From positions 1 through 64,000 of the forward strand of contig JAIOQZ010000027.1 in assembly GCA_021108395.1 (NCBI GenBank): 64,000 nucleotides of DNA. The letters are read 5' to 3'. This DNA comes from Candidatus Cloacimonadota bacterium. GTDB lineage: Bacteria; Cloacimonadota; Cloacimonadia; Cloacimonadales; JAIOQZ01. Every line of letters begins with the position of its first letter. Position 1 is the first letter of the stretch. Below are positions 30,202-38,159 of the stretch, piece after piece. Under the pieces are notes generated by a model, which had not been told where the DNA came from, made no database searches, and saw only the letters and a list, made by a program, of their open reading frames with translations. The position numbers and the translations under genes were made by a program.

Positions 30202-30220
30202 GATTACCTCACTTTTTATA

Positions 30221-30390
30221 AAGCCCGCGGTACCGTGTGACCATCGTAATTGCTGAACTTTCGTTCAAGTGGGTGTCTGCCGCTTCCGCTTCACACTTCC
30301 TGGTAGGCCAGGCTTGTCCGCCACGGCCGACACGACTCCCGGTAGGTCATCAGTTCATAAACAAACAGTCATCACGCATACCGCAGGCAT
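30221..30390 (-). ncRNA. ssrS: 6S RNA candidate
   Basis: The gap between zapA and rny, a common place for 6S RNA, holds about 170 nt that fold on the minus strand. GCCTGCGGTA (5' end, 30379-30388) pairs with TACCGCGGGC (3' end, 30223-30232) with one G-T pair, and the next bases TGCGTGA/TCACACG extend the stem imperfectly. The 3' half reads CCCACTTGAACGAAAGTTCAG, closely like the E. coli 6S region CACCTTGAACcaaGGTTCAAG, a small hairpin just before the closing stem. The middle can form an open bubble. A covariance-model search would decide; no promoter was identified. Confidence 0.7.
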
Positions 30391-30399
30391 TAATTTACC

Positions 30400-31043: not shown

Positions 31044-33665
31044 TTACCTCATCTCAATCTCGAAAGCCTGTTCGAGCCGCTTCACAACACGGGCGAACAG
31101 GGGATCGATGTAGTCGTCTGTCAGGGTTTTCGCATCTGAATGGAAGTGCAGCCCGAATGAAAGGCTGCGCTTGCCGGCGGCAATCTGCTTGCCGGTGAAC
31201 TGGTCGAACAGCCGCACCTCGCGGATGATGTCCGGCTGCACGGCGCGCATGGCTTTTGTCACCTCCTCCACCGAGAAGCGGCGGTCGAGGGTGAACGAGA
31301 TGTCGCGCAGCACAGGCGGGTATTTCGAGATGGGGCGAAATTCTTCATGGCTGCTCGGCTGGGACTGCCGTAACGCTTTCACGCTCAGGTCAAAAGCAAA
31401 CACCGGCGTCTCGATGCCGAAACGCTCTAACACTTTGGTGTCGAGCCGGCCCACGCTGCCCACAGTTACGCCGCCGATGGCAATATCCGCCGCCATGCCC
31501 TGCATGTAGAACGGCTCCTGCGACACGCTCCACTCGGCATCCTCGATTCCAATGTGCTCCAGCAGGCCCTCGACAACGCCACGCATGTCGAAGAAATCGA
31601 CGGGAGCGGGGTCGCCATCCCAGTGCACAGACTCACGGTTGCCGCATATGAGGCCACTGAGGCAGTATTCCTCTTCGGCCAGATGCATATCCTGACGAAA
31701 GAACACCTTGGTCATCTCGAACAGCCTCAGATCGCGGTTACCGTGGTTGACGTTGTAACTCAGGCATTTCAGCAGCCCGGGCAGTAGCGTGGGCTGCATG
31801 AGAGCAAAGCGCGCCCCTACAGGGTTGAGCAGACGCGGAGCAAAGCGCCGCCTGTCCTCGTCGGCGAGGTTGAGCCAATCGAGCGCCTCAGGGTCGCAGA
31901 ACGCCCAGTTGACCACCTCGAAGAATCCGTCGGCCACCAGCCCGTCTGCAAGAACGCGGCGCAAGACAAACCCGACGCGATCCATGATCTCCTGGTCAAC
32001 AGTCTGCCGCGGCACGTTGTTGTAGCCATGCAGACGGATAATCTCTTCGATCAGGTCGATCTCGCGGGTGAGGTCTTTGCGCCAGTATGGCATCTCGAAG
32101 TTGAGCGCCGCTTCGTCGCGTGACAGCAACCGGCAGCCCAGGGCTTCGAGGTAACGGATAAGACGGCGGTCGGGGATATCGACGGCGAGGAAGGCGCGAA
32201 CACGCTCCGGGCGCAGACTGACACAATGCGGCTGCGGCTTGCTGGGCCATGAATCCAGCACACCACTGTAGAGCGTTCCGCCGGCCACCTCGATGAGCAA
32301 TTGGGCACAGCGTTCGCTGGCTAGCATGGCGCTCTGGTCGCTCATGTCGCGCTCGAAACGGAAAGCTGAATCAGTGAAAATCTTGTGTCGGCCAGACGTG
32401 CGGCGAACGCCACTGTACAAGAAGCTGGCCGACTCGATGACAACGTCGCGGGTCGCGCTGGTAATGTGCGAGTTCTCGCCGCCAATGACACCGGCCAGCG
32501 CGATGGGCTTCTGTGCGTCGGCGATGACGAGATCATCAGTGGCAAGCTTGTAGGTTTCGCCGTCCAGCGCCGAGAATTCCTCACCCTCGTCGGCGCGGCG
32601 CACCACAATGGTCTTGTCGGCCACGAGGTCATAGTCGAACGCATGCAGCGGATGCCCCATCTCATACATCACGAAATTGGTAACGTCAACGATGTTGTTG
32701 ATGGGACGCAGGCCGACGGCGCGCAGGCGATCCTGCAACCACTCCGGCGACGGGCCTACCGTCACGTTGCGGATGAATCGCGCCGTGTAACGCGGGCAGC
32801 GTTCGGGGTCGCGGTTATCCAGCTTCAGCACTTCGTGAATGCTTTGCCACACCTCCTGCACCTCGCCAAAAGGCAGAAAACTGCCCTGAGCCGCGGCCAG
32901 CACCTTGCGCCCGATTTTATCAACCCTGAGCAGGCTTTCGGGATTCTCGAAACCGGTGGTCCGGCGATATTCGGCAATGTAGTTTGCCCGCCTGGGGCCG
33001 ATGTCGGGGATGGTTTGTAGCTGCTTCTCGTCGGCAGTGCGCAGGTCGAGCTTGCGGCCATAGCCATAGCGCATCACACGGGCGCCGCCTACGTCGATTT
33101 CGGGCAGCTTGAGCGGTTTGCCAAGCTGGGCGGCGAGGTCTCGCGCCACGCCGATCATGCCCAGCAGGTCAGCGCGATTGGGGGTAATCTCGACCTCGAA
33201 AACAACATCGCGCAACTTCAGAACATCGGCGAGGCTCTGCCCCACCGGTGTGTCTTCCGGCAACACCATGATGCCATCCTGGTTGTCGCTCAGGCCCAGC
33301 TCTTTCTCCGAGCAGATCATCCCGAACGACTCGATTCCGCGCAGCTTCGCCTTCTTGATGACGAAATCGCCCAGTTGCGCCCCAACAGGCGCCAATGGCA
33401 CAATCTGTCCGGCGGCGCAGTTGGGTGCGCCACACACGACCTGAAACTCCTGAGCGCCGTCGAACACCTGGCACACCGACAGCCGGTCGGCGTTGGGGTG
33501 AGGCTCTTTGCTCTGGATGCGGGCGGCAATGAACTGGCCGAGATGCTCTCCCAGCCGCTCCACCGCCTCCACCTCGATGCCGGAGAAGGTGAGGCGTTCC
33601 TGAAGTTCTTCCGGGGTGAGCGCCAGGTCGATATACTCTTTCAGCCAACTGTAACTGATTTTCAT
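31044..33665 (-). CDS. pheT: phenylalanine-tRNA ligase beta subunit with inserted HhH domain
   Basis: The 873-residue protein has the PheT order: an N-terminal EMAP/tRNA-binding domain (about 40-150), B1 ('ITPNRADLLGMIGVARDLAAQLG'), B3/B4 from 'CPRYTARFIRNVTVGPSPEWLQ' (editing), B5, and a C-terminal anticodon-binding FDX domain ('PPVLRDISFTLDRRFSVEEV'). It forms an (alpha-beta)2 enzyme with PheS. Residues about 206-262 are unexpected: 'LRTADEKQLQTIPDIGPRRANYIAEYRRTTGF' (read in parts) is a double helix-hairpin-helix like ComEA, placed between B1 and B3/B4. This accounts for the length above about 800. The start overlaps the pheS stop by 4 nt (ATGA). Confidence 0.97.
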   Translation of the reverse strand: MKISYSWLKEYIDLALTPEELQERLTFSGIEVEAVERLGEHLGQFIAARIQSKEPHPNADRLSVCQVFDGAQEFQVVCGAPNCAAGQIVPLAPVGAQLGDFVIKKAKLRGIESFGMICSEKELGLSDNQDGIMVLPEDTPVGQSLADVLKLRDVVFEVEITPNRADLLGMIGVARDLAAQLGKPLKLPEIDVGGARVMRYGYGRKLDLRTADEKQLQTIPDIGPRRANYIAEYRRTTGFENPESLLRVDKIGRKVLAAAQGSFLPFGEVQEVWQSIHEVLKLDNRDPERCPRYTARFIRNVTVGPSPEWLQDRLRAVGLRPINNIVDVTNFVMYEMGHPLHAFDYDLVADKTIVVRRADEGEEFSALDGETYKLATDDLVIADAQKPIALAGVIGGENSHITSATRDVVIESASFLYSGVRRTSGRHKIFTDSAFRFERDMSDQSAMLASERCAQLLIEVAGGTLYSGVLDSWPSKPQPHCVSLRPERVRAFLAVDIPDRRLIRYLEALGCRLLSRDEAALNFEMPYWRKDLTREIDLIEEIIRLHGYNNVPRQTVDQEIMDRVGFVLRRVLADGLVADGFFEVVNWAFCDPEALDWLNLADEDRRRFAPRLLNPVGARFALMQPTLLPGLLKCLSYNVNHGNRDLRLFEMTKVFFRQDMHLAEEEYCLSGLICGNRESVHWDGDPAPVDFFDMRGVVEGLLEHIGIEDAEWSVSQEPFYMQGMAADIAIGGVTVGSVGRLDTKVLERFGIETPVFAFDLSVKALRQSQPSSHEEFRPISKYPPVLRDISFTLDRRFSVEEVTKAMRAVQPDIIREVRLFDQFTGKQIAAGKRSLSFGLHFHSDAKTLTDDYIDPLFARVVKRLEQAFEIEMR

Positions 33666-34729
33666 GATGATGCCCCGCTTCCCTGATGCACGCCCTTGTA
33701 CGAGCGGAACTGGCGCAGCATACGCACATCGTTCTCGAACAGCATACGCATGTCGGGGATGCCAAGCAACAGCATGGCTACCCGCTCGATGCCAAAGCCG
33801 AACGCATAGCCGCTATATACTTCGGGGTCGATGCCGCAGGCGCGAAAGACGTTGGGGTCAACCATGCCCGCGCCGCCAAGCTCGAGCCATCCCGAACCCT
33901 TGCACACGTTGCAGCCAGAACCCTTGCAGGCGCTGCACAGGATGTCCAGCTCGGCGCTGGGCTCGGTGAAGGGAAAGAAATGCGGACGGAAGCGGCTTTC
34001 TATCTGCTCGCCAAACACCCTCTTGGTAAAGATGTCAACGGTGTCGCGGAAGTCGGCGAAGGTGACGCCTTTATCGACCACGAGCGCTTCGAGCTGGCTG
34101 AACACCGGCGAGTGGCTGGCGTCGTTGTCGTTGCGATAGCAGCGCCCGGGAGCGATGATGCGAATGGGCGGTTTGTGCGTCTCCATCACGCGAATCTGCA
34201 CCGTCGAGGTCTGGGTGCGCAACAGCACGTCATCCTCGATGTAGAATGTATCCGAGAGGTCTCGCGCCGGGTGGTCGTCGGGAGTATTGAGAGCGTCGAA
34301 GTTGTGGTACTCGTCTTCGATATCCGGGCCTTCGGCCACCTCGAAACCCATGCTGATACACACGTCCTCGATGAAGCGGGTGGCCAGAGTGATGGGATGC
34401 AGAGCGCCAGCCTGACGGCGGCGGCCCGGCATGGTGATGTCGAGACGGCGTTCTTCGAGAGTGCGCAGGTAGTCGGCTTCCTTGAGGGTTTCCTCGCGCA
34501 GGCGCACACACGCCCCCACCTGGCTCTTGGCCTGGTTCACTCGCTGGCCGAATGCCGGACGCTCCTCCTTCGGGAGGCCGCCCAGCAGCTTCATCAGCCC
34601 TTGCAGCTCGCTTTTTTTGCCCAGCCAGCGCGACTTGACCAGTTGCAGGTCGTGCAGGTTGGCGGCCTGGCCGATTTCTCCCTCGGCCCGTGCCACAATC
34701 TCTTGCAACTGCCTATTCTGGGGATTCAT
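33662..34729 (-). CDS. pheS: phenylalanine-tRNA ligase alpha subunit
   Basis: The 355-residue protein has an N-terminal coiled coil and a class II catalytic core: motif 1 region ('HPITLATRFIEDVCISMGFEVAEGPDIE', read in parts), motif 2 ('HTSPVQ'-like 'TSTVQIRVMETHKPPIRIIAPGRCYRND') and motif 3 near 'FGFGIERVAMLLLGI'. It activates Phe and charges tRNA-Phe with PheT. Between them 'ILCSACKGSGCNVCKGSGW' is a Cys-rich segment seen in many PheS proteins. The start at 34729 has AAGGTGGG upstream; the gene follows rplT by 63 nt. Confidence 0.98.
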   Translation of the reverse strand: MNPQNRQLQEIVARAEGEIGQAANLHDLQLVKSRWLGKKSELQGLMKLLGGLPKEERPAFGQRVNQAKSQVGACVRLREETLKEADYLRTLEERRLDITMPGRRRQAGALHPITLATRFIEDVCISMGFEVAEGPDIEDEYHNFDALNTPDDHPARDLSDTFYIEDDVLLRTQTSTVQIRVMETHKPPIRIIAPGRCYRNDNDASHSPVFSQLEALVVDKGVTFADFRDTVDIFTKRVFGEQIESRFRPHFFPFTEPSAELDILCSACKGSGCNVCKGSGWLELGGAGMVDPNVFRACGIDPEVYSGYAFGFGIERVAMLLLGIPDMRMLFENDVRMLRQFRSYKGVHQGSGASS

Positions 34730-34792: not shown

Positions 34793-35224
34793 CTACTCTC
34801 CTGCTGGTTCATCGACCTCACCCTGCGGCTCGTCCGTCTCGGTGGGGACAGACTCGACGATGGGGGCGGGGACATCTTCGCCTCGGGCCGCGGCGCAAAG
34901 CTGCGCAAAAGCCTCTGGTTCGTGCCAGGCCAAATGGGCCAGAATCTTGCGATCTACGGCGATGTCGGCCTTGTGCAGGCCATTGATGAGCTGGCTGTAG
35001 GAAAGGCCATTGCTGCGGGCGCCCGCATTGATGCGGATGATCCACAGGCGGCGCATCTCGCGCTTGCGAACGCGGCGATCTCTGTATGCGTATAGCCAGC
35101 CCTTCTCGACGGCCTGGCGTGCGGTACGGTATAGTTTACTGCGGCCGCCCACATAACCACGGGCTGCCTTGAGATACTTTTTCTTGCGGCTCTTATGAGC
35201 AACGTTATTTACTGAACGTGGCAT
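34793..35224 (-). CDS. rplT: 50S ribosomal protein L20
   Basis: The chain has 143 residues from the ATG complementing 35222-35224, with AAGGAG at good spacing; a GTG six bases upstream is an alternative. Residues 1-117 are standard L20 ('NVAHKSRKKKYLKAARGYVGGRS'-type start, 'RRLWIIRINAGARSNGLSYSQLINGL', read in parts). The last about 25 residues are an acidic Glu/Asp/Pro-rich extension beyond the usual 117-120. L20 assembles early on 23S rRNA and, in Bacillus, feeds back on the infC-rpmI-rplT leader; the leader attenuator at 36.2-36.4 kb fits such control here. Confidence 0.97.
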   Translation of the reverse strand: MPRSVNNVAHKSRKKKYLKAARGYVGGRSKLYRTARQAVEKGWLYAYRDRRVRKREMRRLWIIRINAGARSNGLSYSQLINGLHKADIAVDRKILAHLAWHEPEAFAQLCAAARGEDVPAPIVESVPTETDEPQGEVDEPAGE

Positions 35225-35571: not shown

Positions 35572-36162
35572 TTATTCGAGATGCTCTTCTTCCCAACTTT
35601 CGATCAGGTTATCGATGTCTTTTTTAGGCGACATGACCATCGAGATGGACCGTGCCTCGTTCTGGATGTCGCGGTCGAGGTCGGCGATATCCTTGAGGTC
35701 TTCCTTCAGGCGATTGAGCAGGTCATAGCCCAGGTCTTTGTGGGCAAGCTGACGGCCACGGAAACGAACCGTGAGCTTCACTTTGTCGTGATGCTTCAGA
35801 AATTTCGACGCGTTCTTCTTCTTGAAGTTGAAGTCGTGCTCCTCGGTGTTGGGACCAAACTTCACTTCTTTCAGCTCGACCGTGTGCTGCTTCTTGCGGG
35901 ACTCACGGGCGCGGCGTTCTTTCTGATAGTGATACTTGCCAAAGTCGAGGATGCGGCAGACAGGCGGGCTGCTCTTGGGCGCCACCTCGACAAGGTCAAG
36001 CCCCGCCTGCTCGGCGCGAGCCAGGGCCTGCTGCGTAGTCACGATGCCAACCTGGGCGCCCTCTTCGTCGATGAGACGAACCTGCGGAACCCTGATCTGG
36101 CGATTGATTCTCTCTTTGGGAACATCGGGGTTGGTTCTTGCCTTCCCTCTTCGTATCCGGAT
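35572..36162 (-). CDS. infC: translation initiation factor IF-3, non-AUG start
   Basis: The 196-residue protein starts at an AUC (36160-36162) or the AUA just upstream (36163-36165), both downstream of AAAGGAGG. No AUG, GUG or UUG lies at the proper place, and the first in-frame GTG (36042) would delete the conserved N-terminal domain. The sequence from '[20 protein letters not shown]' through '[16 protein letters not shown]' is classic IF-3 N-terminus; the C-terminal domain has '[32 protein letters not shown]' (read in parts). IF-3 rejects non-canonical starts, so an AUU/AUC/AUA start on its own mRNA gives autoregulation as in E. coli. Confidence 0.95.
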   Translation of the reverse strand: [196 protein letters not shown]

Positions 36163-36228
36163 TATAAGCGCCTCCTTTCTGGGTGAACGTCAATGATGCC
36201 GGTGGCCCCCGCCACTTGCGCATCGCCA

Positions 36229-36253
36229 TAAAAAAAACGGATGCAAGCATCCG
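36229..36253 (-). terminator. terminator within the infC leader
   Basis: On the minus strand CGGATGC and GCATCCG form a 7-bp stem with a 2-nt loop, followed by eight T (36230-36237), a strong intrinsic terminator. It lies about 70 nt before the infC start, so transcription into infC must read through it. Confidence 0.85.
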
Positions 36254-36463
36254 CTGTGACGCCGGTTGCCCGACATCATTCACGCCTTGCCGCACAAGCG
36301 GCCCAAGACGCACTATCAATAATAACCTTGCCGGTGTCTCCGCCGGTGCAAACCGGAATCATCGAACCGCAAGGCAGAAGCGGATGCTTCTTTTCGCCAT
36401 CAGGCGCAATTAAACGCCTTCGGGCACAATAAACATAGTTTTTGCAGCTGGATATGTCGTCAA
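36237..36463 (-). promoter_or_regulatory. leader RNA with attenuator structures ahead of infC
   Basis: The 320-nt gap 36163-36482 holds no gene but a structured leader. Its 3' end is a terminator hairpin (see next entry). About 125 nt upstream, AAGCATCCGCT (complement of 36379-36389) can pair over 11 bp with the 5' arm of that terminator (AGCGGATGCTT, complement of 36245-36255), which would open it; the same segment also folds alone as GAAGC-ATCC-GCTTC. Between them CCTTGC/GCAAGG closes a domain with CCGG helices, followed by a GCCGC-TTGT-GCGGC hairpin. A promoter candidate TTGACG (36458-36463) with TATGTT 20 nt downstream may start it. An L20-type or tRNA-type signal is possible; the ligand is unknown. 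Confidence 0.65.
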
Positions 36464-36482
36464 GCCTTTTCTTGCTCTGCGA

Positions 36483-38159
36483 CTACGCCTGCGCCGCGAT
36501 CTTCTGCCGCACCGTGTGCTCCACCGCCACGGCCACATCCTCGGTTTGTTTCAGCAGGCCGTCGGCCTTCGCACTGATGTCCCGTTTCCAGGCCTCGTCA
36601 TCCACGCCACTCATGTTGATCTGAATATTGAGGTGTGCGCCCTTAGCGGCGGCGCATGCGTTGATGGCGGCCACTCCGGCGTCGGAGAGAGCGTTGGCGT
36701 TGCCAACGGCGGCGATGCGCTCTGCCAGTTGCACCCCTTCCCAGGCAATCTGCAACGTCTCGAGCGGCGCCAGGATGGCGTTCTTGGTGGACTGCTGGAT
36801 GGCGGCGTTTCTGGCAGCCTTGTCCGCTTCGGTCTTCTTGGGCAGGCGGGCAGCGTCCATCATCTCATAAAAGGCGTCCGTGTCGCTGTCGATGGCGGCC
36901 AGGGCGCGATCTTTGATGCCCTGCCCCTCGACGGCTATCTGCTTCACCTCGGCGTCAACGCCTTCGTAGCCCTTCTTGCCGGCGGTAAGGTTGCCCACCA
37001 TGGCCGAAAGCCCACCCGACAATGCGGCGCACAACGCCGCCACCGAGCCGCCACCCGGAGCGGGAGAGTCGGTCGAAAGCTCGTCGGCGAAATCGTTGAT
37101 CTTCATCGCGACCAGGGCGTCCTTGCGGGCGATAGCGTATTCGATGATCTTTTCGTCGAGGTCGAACGGCCCCAGGTCGTTCAAGCCCATCGACTGGATA
37201 GTCGTTTCCATGAGCATGCGTTCTGGCAGGCCGCAGCTCTCGCCCAGTCGTTCCAGGTAGTACGTTGCCGCCAGAATCATCGCCTCTTTGGGGATGAGAC
37301 CGACCAACTCGCTGCCGGTCACCTGAATGCCGCTTTGCGCGGCCAGATCTCGCACCTTCTCCAGCACGATGTGCGGTGGCGTAATCTTGAAATTGGTGAG
37401 GTTCATGGAAATCTGGGCGCGCATGTATTCGTCGATGAACCAACCCACAGCCTTACAGTTGGTGAACAGTCCCTGCACCCGCAGCTTTTCGCCATTGGCG
37501 TCGCGTTTCACCTTGCCCTTGCTGTCGCGCTCGAAGCGGCCGCTCTCGCGGATGGACAGCGCGATGTCGTGCGCCTTCTTTTTGTCGCGTGTGTTGAGGT
37601 TGATGTTGTATGCGATTAGGAACTCCCGCGCTCCGATGGTGACCACGCCAGACTTGGCGTTGAACACCTGCGGGCCGAAGTCGGGCTTCCACTGCGGGTC
37701 TTTCATCTTGGCGGGCAGGGCTTCATACTCGCCCTTGCGCACCACTGCCAGGTTGCTCCATTCGGGCTTGCTGGCGGCGTGCTCGTAGAGGTAAACAGGG
37801 ATGCCAAGCTCGTCGCCGACCCGCCGGCCCAGCTTGCGCGCCAACTCGACGCACTCGTCCATCGTCATCTCGGACACGGGCACGAACGGACAGACGTCGG
37901 TGGCGCCATGGCGGGCATGCGCCCCGCTGTGCTTGCTCATGTCGATGAGCTCCGCGGCTTTAGCTATACCGCGGAAGGCCGCTTCCACAGCGGCTTCGGG
38001 CGGGCCCACAAAAGTGACGACGGTGCGGTTGGTGTCGGCGCCGGGGTCAACATCCAGCATCGTGATATTCTTGACGGAAGTGATTGCCGCGGCAATCGCG
38101 TCGAGAATTTTTTTATCCCTGCCTTCGCTGAAGTTCGGAACGCATTCGACCAGTTTCAT
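36483..38159 (-). CDS. ftcD: formiminotransferase-cyclodeaminase
   Basis: The 558-residue fused enzyme has an N-terminal glutamate formiminotransferase domain (about 1-325) with 'VECVPNFSEGRD', 'DVDPGADTNRTVVTF' and the catalytic 'HSGAHARHGATDVCPFVP', and a C-terminal cyclodeaminase domain (about 350-558) with 'SPAPGGGSVAALCAALSG'. It transfers the formimino group of formiminoglutamate to THF and releases ammonia, giving 5,10-methenyl-THF. This is the end of histidine breakdown; urocanate hydratase sits at 63.6 kb and FolD at 27 kb uses the product. It follows the guanine deaminase gene by 29 nt. Confidence 0.96.
   Translation of the reverse strand: MKLVECVPNFSEGRDKKILDAIAAAITSVKNITMLDVDPGADTNRTVVTFVGPPEAAVEAAFRGIAKAAELIDMSKHSGAHARHGATDVCPFVPVSEMTMDECVELARKLGRRVGDELGIPVYLYEHAASKPEWSNLAVVRKGEYEALPAKMKDPQWKPDFGPQVFNAKSGVVTIGAREFLIAYNINLNTRDKKKAHDIALSIRESGRFERDSKGKVKRDANGEKLRVQGLFTNCKAVGWFIDEYMRAQISMNLTNFKITPPHIVLEKVRDLAAQSGIQVTGSELVGLIPKEAMILAATYYLERLGESCGLPERMLMETTIQSMGLNDLGPFDLDEKIIEYAIARKDALVAMKINDFADELSTDSPAPGGGSVAALCAALSGGLSAMVGNLTAGKKGYEGVDAEVKQIAVEGQGIKDRALAAIDSDTDAFYEMMDAARLPKKTEADKAARNAAIQQSTKNAILAPLETLQIAWEGVQLAERIAAVGNANALSDAGVAAINACAAAKGAHLNIQINMSGVDDEAWKRDISAKADGLLKQTEDVAVAVEHTVRQKIAAQA

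Follow-up and report, generated by a model that had tools for sequence, protein, structure and literature searches.

A putative L20-responsive transcription attenuator of the Bacillus subtilis type upstream of infC in Cloacimonadota

The stretch of DNA analysed here, referred to as the window, comprises 64,000 nucleotides of a Candidatus Cloacimonadota bacterium (contig JAIOQZ010000027.1) and carries a structured leader upstream of infC on its minus strand. Based on its sequence and on analogy with Bacillus subtilis, this leader is interpreted as an L20-responsive transcription attenuator of the kind found before infC in that bacterium, a reading to which a probability of roughly 0.88 is assigned. 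From sequence comparison it looks like a known type of control element, located in a phylum for which it had no prior description and outside its published Firmicutes range, and not like a new class of RNA.

The leader is located between an ftcD-like gene (end 36483) and infC, and the minus-strand genes following it are, in order, infC (IF3; 35572-36165; TIGR00168, 9.6e-66), rpmI (L35; 35291-35485; TIGR00001), rplT (L20, the presumed regulator; 34793-35224; TIGR01032, 2.3e-42), pheS (33662-34729; TIGR00468) and pheT (31044-33665; TIGR00472). The gene for L20 is part of the operon behind the leader, and co-transcription of pheS and pheT is likely. Among named sequences, this IF3 is matched best by Candidatus Cloacimonadota genomes. 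A Shine-Dalgarno sequence (AGGAGG, 36171-36176) was read before infC, whose start codon is ATA (36165-36163). Among relatives, an in-frame ATA or ATT was found after the Shine-Dalgarno sequence in 47 of the 57 leaders tested (for the remaining ten, the script saw no listed start codon within its short interval). A preliminary description of this DNA had counted the non-AUG start as one of two layers of control of the operon. The start itself is real and conserved, but nothing special attaches to it as a layer, as infC of B. subtilis starts with ATT (PMC6097659); as a second layer of control, a non-AUG infC start readable by IF3 is ordinary.

Further features were identified around the operon. 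The gene directly 5' of the leader (36483-38159, minus strand) encodes a fused glutamate formimidoyltransferase and methenyltetrahydrofolate cyclohydrolase-like protein. Residues 204-257 of PheT match the ComEA family (E 1.3e-6), apparently as a domain inserted between the N-terminal part and the remainder of the protein. A 6S RNA gene (RF00013, 75.4 bits; 30218-30392, minus strand) comes after pheT and a small ORF that looks like a coiled coil.

Read along the minus strand, the leader opens with TTGACG (36458-36463), the likely -35 element of a leader promoter without a confident -10; TTGAC occurs 5' of P1 in 62 of the 63 leaders of the order described below. An AA dimer (36392-36393), a candidate L20 contact, immediately precedes the hairpin AGAAGC-AUCC-GCUUCU (36376-36391), which aligns to P1 of the Rfam L20_leader family (RF00558). 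It is equivalent to H1 of the L20 leader and would act as anti-antiterminator. The P2 helix follows (36325-36375), equivalent to H2, with an inner hairpin and strands GCCUUGC (36375-36369) and GCAAGGU (36331-36325); in relatives its CC/GG pairs are invariant, while flanking pairs change from A-U to G-C. The P1-P2 junction in the window reads GCUUCU-G-CCUU...AAGGU. Downstream of P2, a spacer with two local hairpins in the predicted fold (36257-36310) is variable among relatives and not conserved. The leader ends in an intrinsic terminator (36230-36255), consisting of the stem-loop AGCGGAUG-CUUG-CAUCCGUU (36255-36236, loop of 4 nt) and a tract of eight U (36237-36230), the end of which is 64 nt 5' of the ATA start (36165). 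Of the terminator as first described, with 7 bp and eight T about 70 nt before infC, the T-tract stands; the stem is better given as 8 pairs, with the outer A-U and G.U included, and the distance is the shorter one given here.

Within P1, the strand AAGCAUCCGCU (36389-36379) is an exact complement, over 11 nt, of AGCGGAUGCUU (36255-36245), which forms the 5' arm of the terminator. As the first of these strands is part of the P1 hairpin, the leader has two mutually exclusive folds, in one of which P1 and the terminator are formed and in the other the antiterminator. Both the 11-nt complementarity and the folding of the upstream segment on itself had been pointed out in the preliminary description, the latter corresponding to P1 and giving the exclusive state proposed there. 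When the 235-nt region was shuffled 500 times with its dinucleotide content kept, 3 shuffles contained an exact inverted repeat of at least 11 nt, and the fold of the leader was more stable than those of shuffled sequences (z = -2.96, 3/200). The predicted minimum-energy fold contains the antiterminator (-71.6 kcal/mol, versus -70.6 kcal/mol for P1 plus terminator), the predicted energies of the two states lying within about 1 kcal/mol of each other.

Comparisons were made among 63 infC leaders, one from the genome of the window and the rest from 62 further genomes in its order. P1 and P2 were placed in all 63 (in two of them P1 was positioned manually; a truncated leader was left out). P1, both strands of P2 and both terminator arms were aligned in fixed register, loops and spacer being excluded; nine leaders were set manually into the terminator register after the automatic register had failed. 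A second alignment was made with MAFFT; in a separate MAFFT alignment of the core, the 3' strand of P2 was moved by one base. The five core pairs of P1 are all formed in 60 of 60 distinct rows, and the sequence of P1 is nearly constant within the order. For P2 and the terminator, 95.2% of cells are paired, compared with 34-49% when the partner is slid, and two-sided changes occur in 11 of 14 pairs; they are found in all eight pairs of the terminator. The antiterminator pairing between P1 and the terminator is formed in 89.3% of cells (39-47% when slid), with two-sided changes in seven of nine pairs. In 500 trials, swapping partner strands between species, even within families, gave no pairing as high as that observed for P2, terminator or antiterminator. 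For 53 of the 63 leaders, the duplex of P1 with downstream sequence surpassed 95% or more of the dinucleotide shuffles, shuffle controls of this kind ignoring phylogeny. The AA dimer 5' of P1 is present in all 63 leaders, as well as in ten leaders of other families, and the CC/GG pairs of P2 are the same throughout.

At the level of sequence, the 63 infC leaders have kept P1, P2, the terminator and the pairing of P1 with the terminator, and P2, the terminator and the switch pairing covary. The proposal that infC and its operon are preceded by a terminator/antiterminator leader is thereby borne out, both the 11-bp pairing and the terminator covarying in relatives. For most relatives, prediction gives the terminator state as the more stable at equilibrium, by a mean of 7 kcal/mol, so antitermination would have to be kinetic, occurring during transcription. 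An exact core pattern, searched over 123 genomes, gave a single match in each of 59 and none in the reversed control; this pattern misses families with another P1 as well as the window, where the gap has one base too many.

Against RF00558, the window leader scores 19.5 bits on the correct strand, with P1, P2 and terminator aligned and a cut-off of 58.7 bits. This match ranks third in its own genome (E 0.3), which is chance level; RF00558 alone was therefore dropped as proof for the window copy, and the case rests on the relatives. A second match, on the plus strand (36366-36478, 20.5 bits), was rejected as the near-palindromic P1 read backwards. In relatives, matches are located just 5' of infC and reach up to 53 bits, with E values down to 1e-9 per genome. 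At E<=0.001, 74 of 125 genomes match, some of the matches being elsewhere in the genome; the 58.7-bit cut-off was passed in none of the 125. Only one of 30 comparison genomes passed it, and Clostridia leaders before infC scored 47.7-52.6 bits. The gathering cut-off is a threshold set by curators, not a biological feature, and it misses most of the infC-linked Clostridia leaders tested. At E 0.1, no match at infC was found in representatives of KSB1, Chloroflexota, Gemmatimonadota, Deltaproteobacteria and one Bacteroidota; weak matches of 30-34 bits, taken anywhere in the genome, came from two genomes of Flavobacteriales.

The organisation of the window leader is that of RF00558, as in the infC leader of B. 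subtilis: P1 and P2 with a conserved junction, a spacer, a terminator (H4) and an alternative pairing that precludes it, with a P1 strand as antiterminator, all 5' of infC-rpmI-rplT. The position before infC is also kept in relatives. The core is near-identical (AGAAGC..CCCGCUUCU and CCUU...AAGG, with the junction U-R-CCUU). The same pairing of P1 with the terminator is seen in Bacillota members of RF00558; in Clostridia L20 leaders, among them one above the cut-off, the terminator 5' arm is paired by the loop and 3' arm of P1. The leader had at first been regarded as a possible new attenuator, not obviously of the L20 class; given this shared layout and pairing, and the scores of relatives before infC, that view finds no support. 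Differences from RF00558 were also identified: the Cloacimonadota copies score below the cut-off, P2 of the window is longer and its spacer structured, many relatives have an inner P2 of the CGG/UACUUG type, and antiterminator contacts are shifted in some families.

In B. subtilis, the terminator is described as being stabilised by L20 bound where H1 meets H2 (PMC6097659), and two elements are described as common to L20 leaders and 23S rRNA, namely two G-C pairs in succession and an AA dimer (PMC7247131). The window leader likewise contains an AA and a stack of two C-G pairs, which do not vary in relatives. By analogy, the AA 5' of P1 and the CC/GG pairs of P2 would be the reported elements of the L20 site; no copy of 23S rRNA was found in the genome of the window. 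We infer that the ligand is L20, that an excess of it turns the operon off, and that read-through extends into pheST. With little L20 present, the strand of P1 at 36389-36379 would pair with the emerging terminator 5' arm (36255-36245), and read-through would be the default state, allowing transcription of infC-rpmI-rplT and probably of pheS-pheT too. Once there is more free L20 than 23S rRNA sites to take it up, the protein would bind the P1-P2 junction and keep P1 closed, releasing the terminator 5' arm; the terminator could then form, ending transcription before infC.

The L20-type layout could also serve a different ligand, such as IF3, L35 or PheRS, or belong to a constitutive attenuator, as the operon also codes for IF3, L35 and PheST and binding of L20 is here a prediction from sequence. 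This is considered unlikely, since the P1-P2 core retains the elements reported for L20 recognition and resembles leaders that respond to L20 in B. subtilis (PMC6097659). The presence of pheS and pheT after rplT is in keeping with the earlier suggestion that uncharged tRNA-Phe is sensed, by a T-box or by an attenuator with a Phe leader peptide. T-box leaders exert terminator/antiterminator control, often of tRNA ligase genes, and that mode of control is shared by the window leader. However, the T-box model (RF00230) gave no match in the leader at E<=10 and none in the window at gathering score, which leaves the idea of uncharged tRNA-Phe without support. For a leader peptide, a 13-codon ORF (MAKRSIRFCLAVR) overlaps P1-P2 in the window, but it contains one Phe and has no evident Shine-Dalgarno sequence, and in relatives it is absent, has 1-5 codons or is of unrelated length. 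With no covariance-model match and no conserved ORF, T-box and leader peptide were both rejected as very improbable. Equally improbable is that the FtcD gene before the leader simply has an ordinary terminator, with a complementary segment nearby by chance, for although the terminator also lies 3' of that co-oriented gene, such a repeat was rare in shuffles, TTGAC, P1, P2, terminator and pairing are kept before infC, and the covariation of the pairings refutes this reading.

Homologous leaders were also sought in other families of the class, where the AA-P1-P2-terminator layout was identified in 10 of 11 infC leaders examined (L161-L171), that of L165 showing no recognisable element. The P1 sequence of those ten leaders differs (GGAAC/GUUCC, GAAC/GUUC or GAAAC/GUUUC), and it is the loop and inner 5' arm of the terminator, not the outer arm, that P1 pairs with, for example AACUGCUG with CAGCAGUU in L169. 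This pairing beat at least 95% of shuffles in six of the ten leaders and at least 90% in nine; for so small a set the cross-species controls were mixed, and the pairing is less decisive. RF00558 gave no match to any leader from L161 to L171.

Two groups of leaders deviate in other ways. For L117 and L132 (family f9), the complement of the terminator 5' arm, UCAGCGGG, was found in the P2 loop (CCCGCUGA) and not in P1, and from the sequence the antiterminator contact seems to have moved from P1 to the P2 loop. For L114, L120, L127 and L129 (family f10), a hairpin of ~18-20 bp precedes infC with no four consecutive U behind it; where sister genomes have the U-tract CCUUUUUC, these leaders have CCUGCUUC or CCUGUUUC, lengthening the stem. 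The hairpins of these four leaders may not terminate transcription. It is a tentative and rather doubtful suggestion that the Firmicutes-type L20 leader is old in Cloacimonadota, or was transferred, and diversified there, antiterminator contacts moving and the U-tract being lost in some members of one family. If true, loss of the U-tract would mean that L20 control there no longer works by terminating transcription but in another mode.

The window leader resembles the L20 operator in infC-rpmI-rplT of Escherichia coli in its presumed regulator, its operon and its mimicry of rRNA (reviewed in PMC10931766). The E. coli operator, consisting of a pseudoknot and an irregular hairpin, is translational and spares infC, whereas the window leader has a transcription terminator before infC. 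The proposed L20-Deltaproteobacteria leader (RF03126) also possesses an AA dimer and two G-C pairs (PMC7247131), but its scaffold differs, it is located 3' of infC in delta relatives, and it gave no match to the window leader.

The L20 leader of B. subtilis was described in 2018 as narrowly distributed, in Firmicutes (PMC6097659), and leaders common to several phyla have been termed unusual (PMC7247131). Cloacimonetes are not named in the 2020 leader survey (PMC7247131), and a literature search pairing Cloacimonadota with riboswitch returned no report of this leader in the phylum. As RF00558 also matches Thermotoga maritima among the control genomes, the published range is already too narrow, and a near phylum-wide Cloacimonadota set with covarying switch helices broadens it further. 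The Rfam cut-off is seen to miss most members even in Clostridia, and dozens of diverged leaders are now available for defining the L20 recognition site. For the organisms themselves, the leader predicts feedback control of IF3, L35 and L20, and perhaps of PheRS, in a phylum that is known chiefly through metagenomes.
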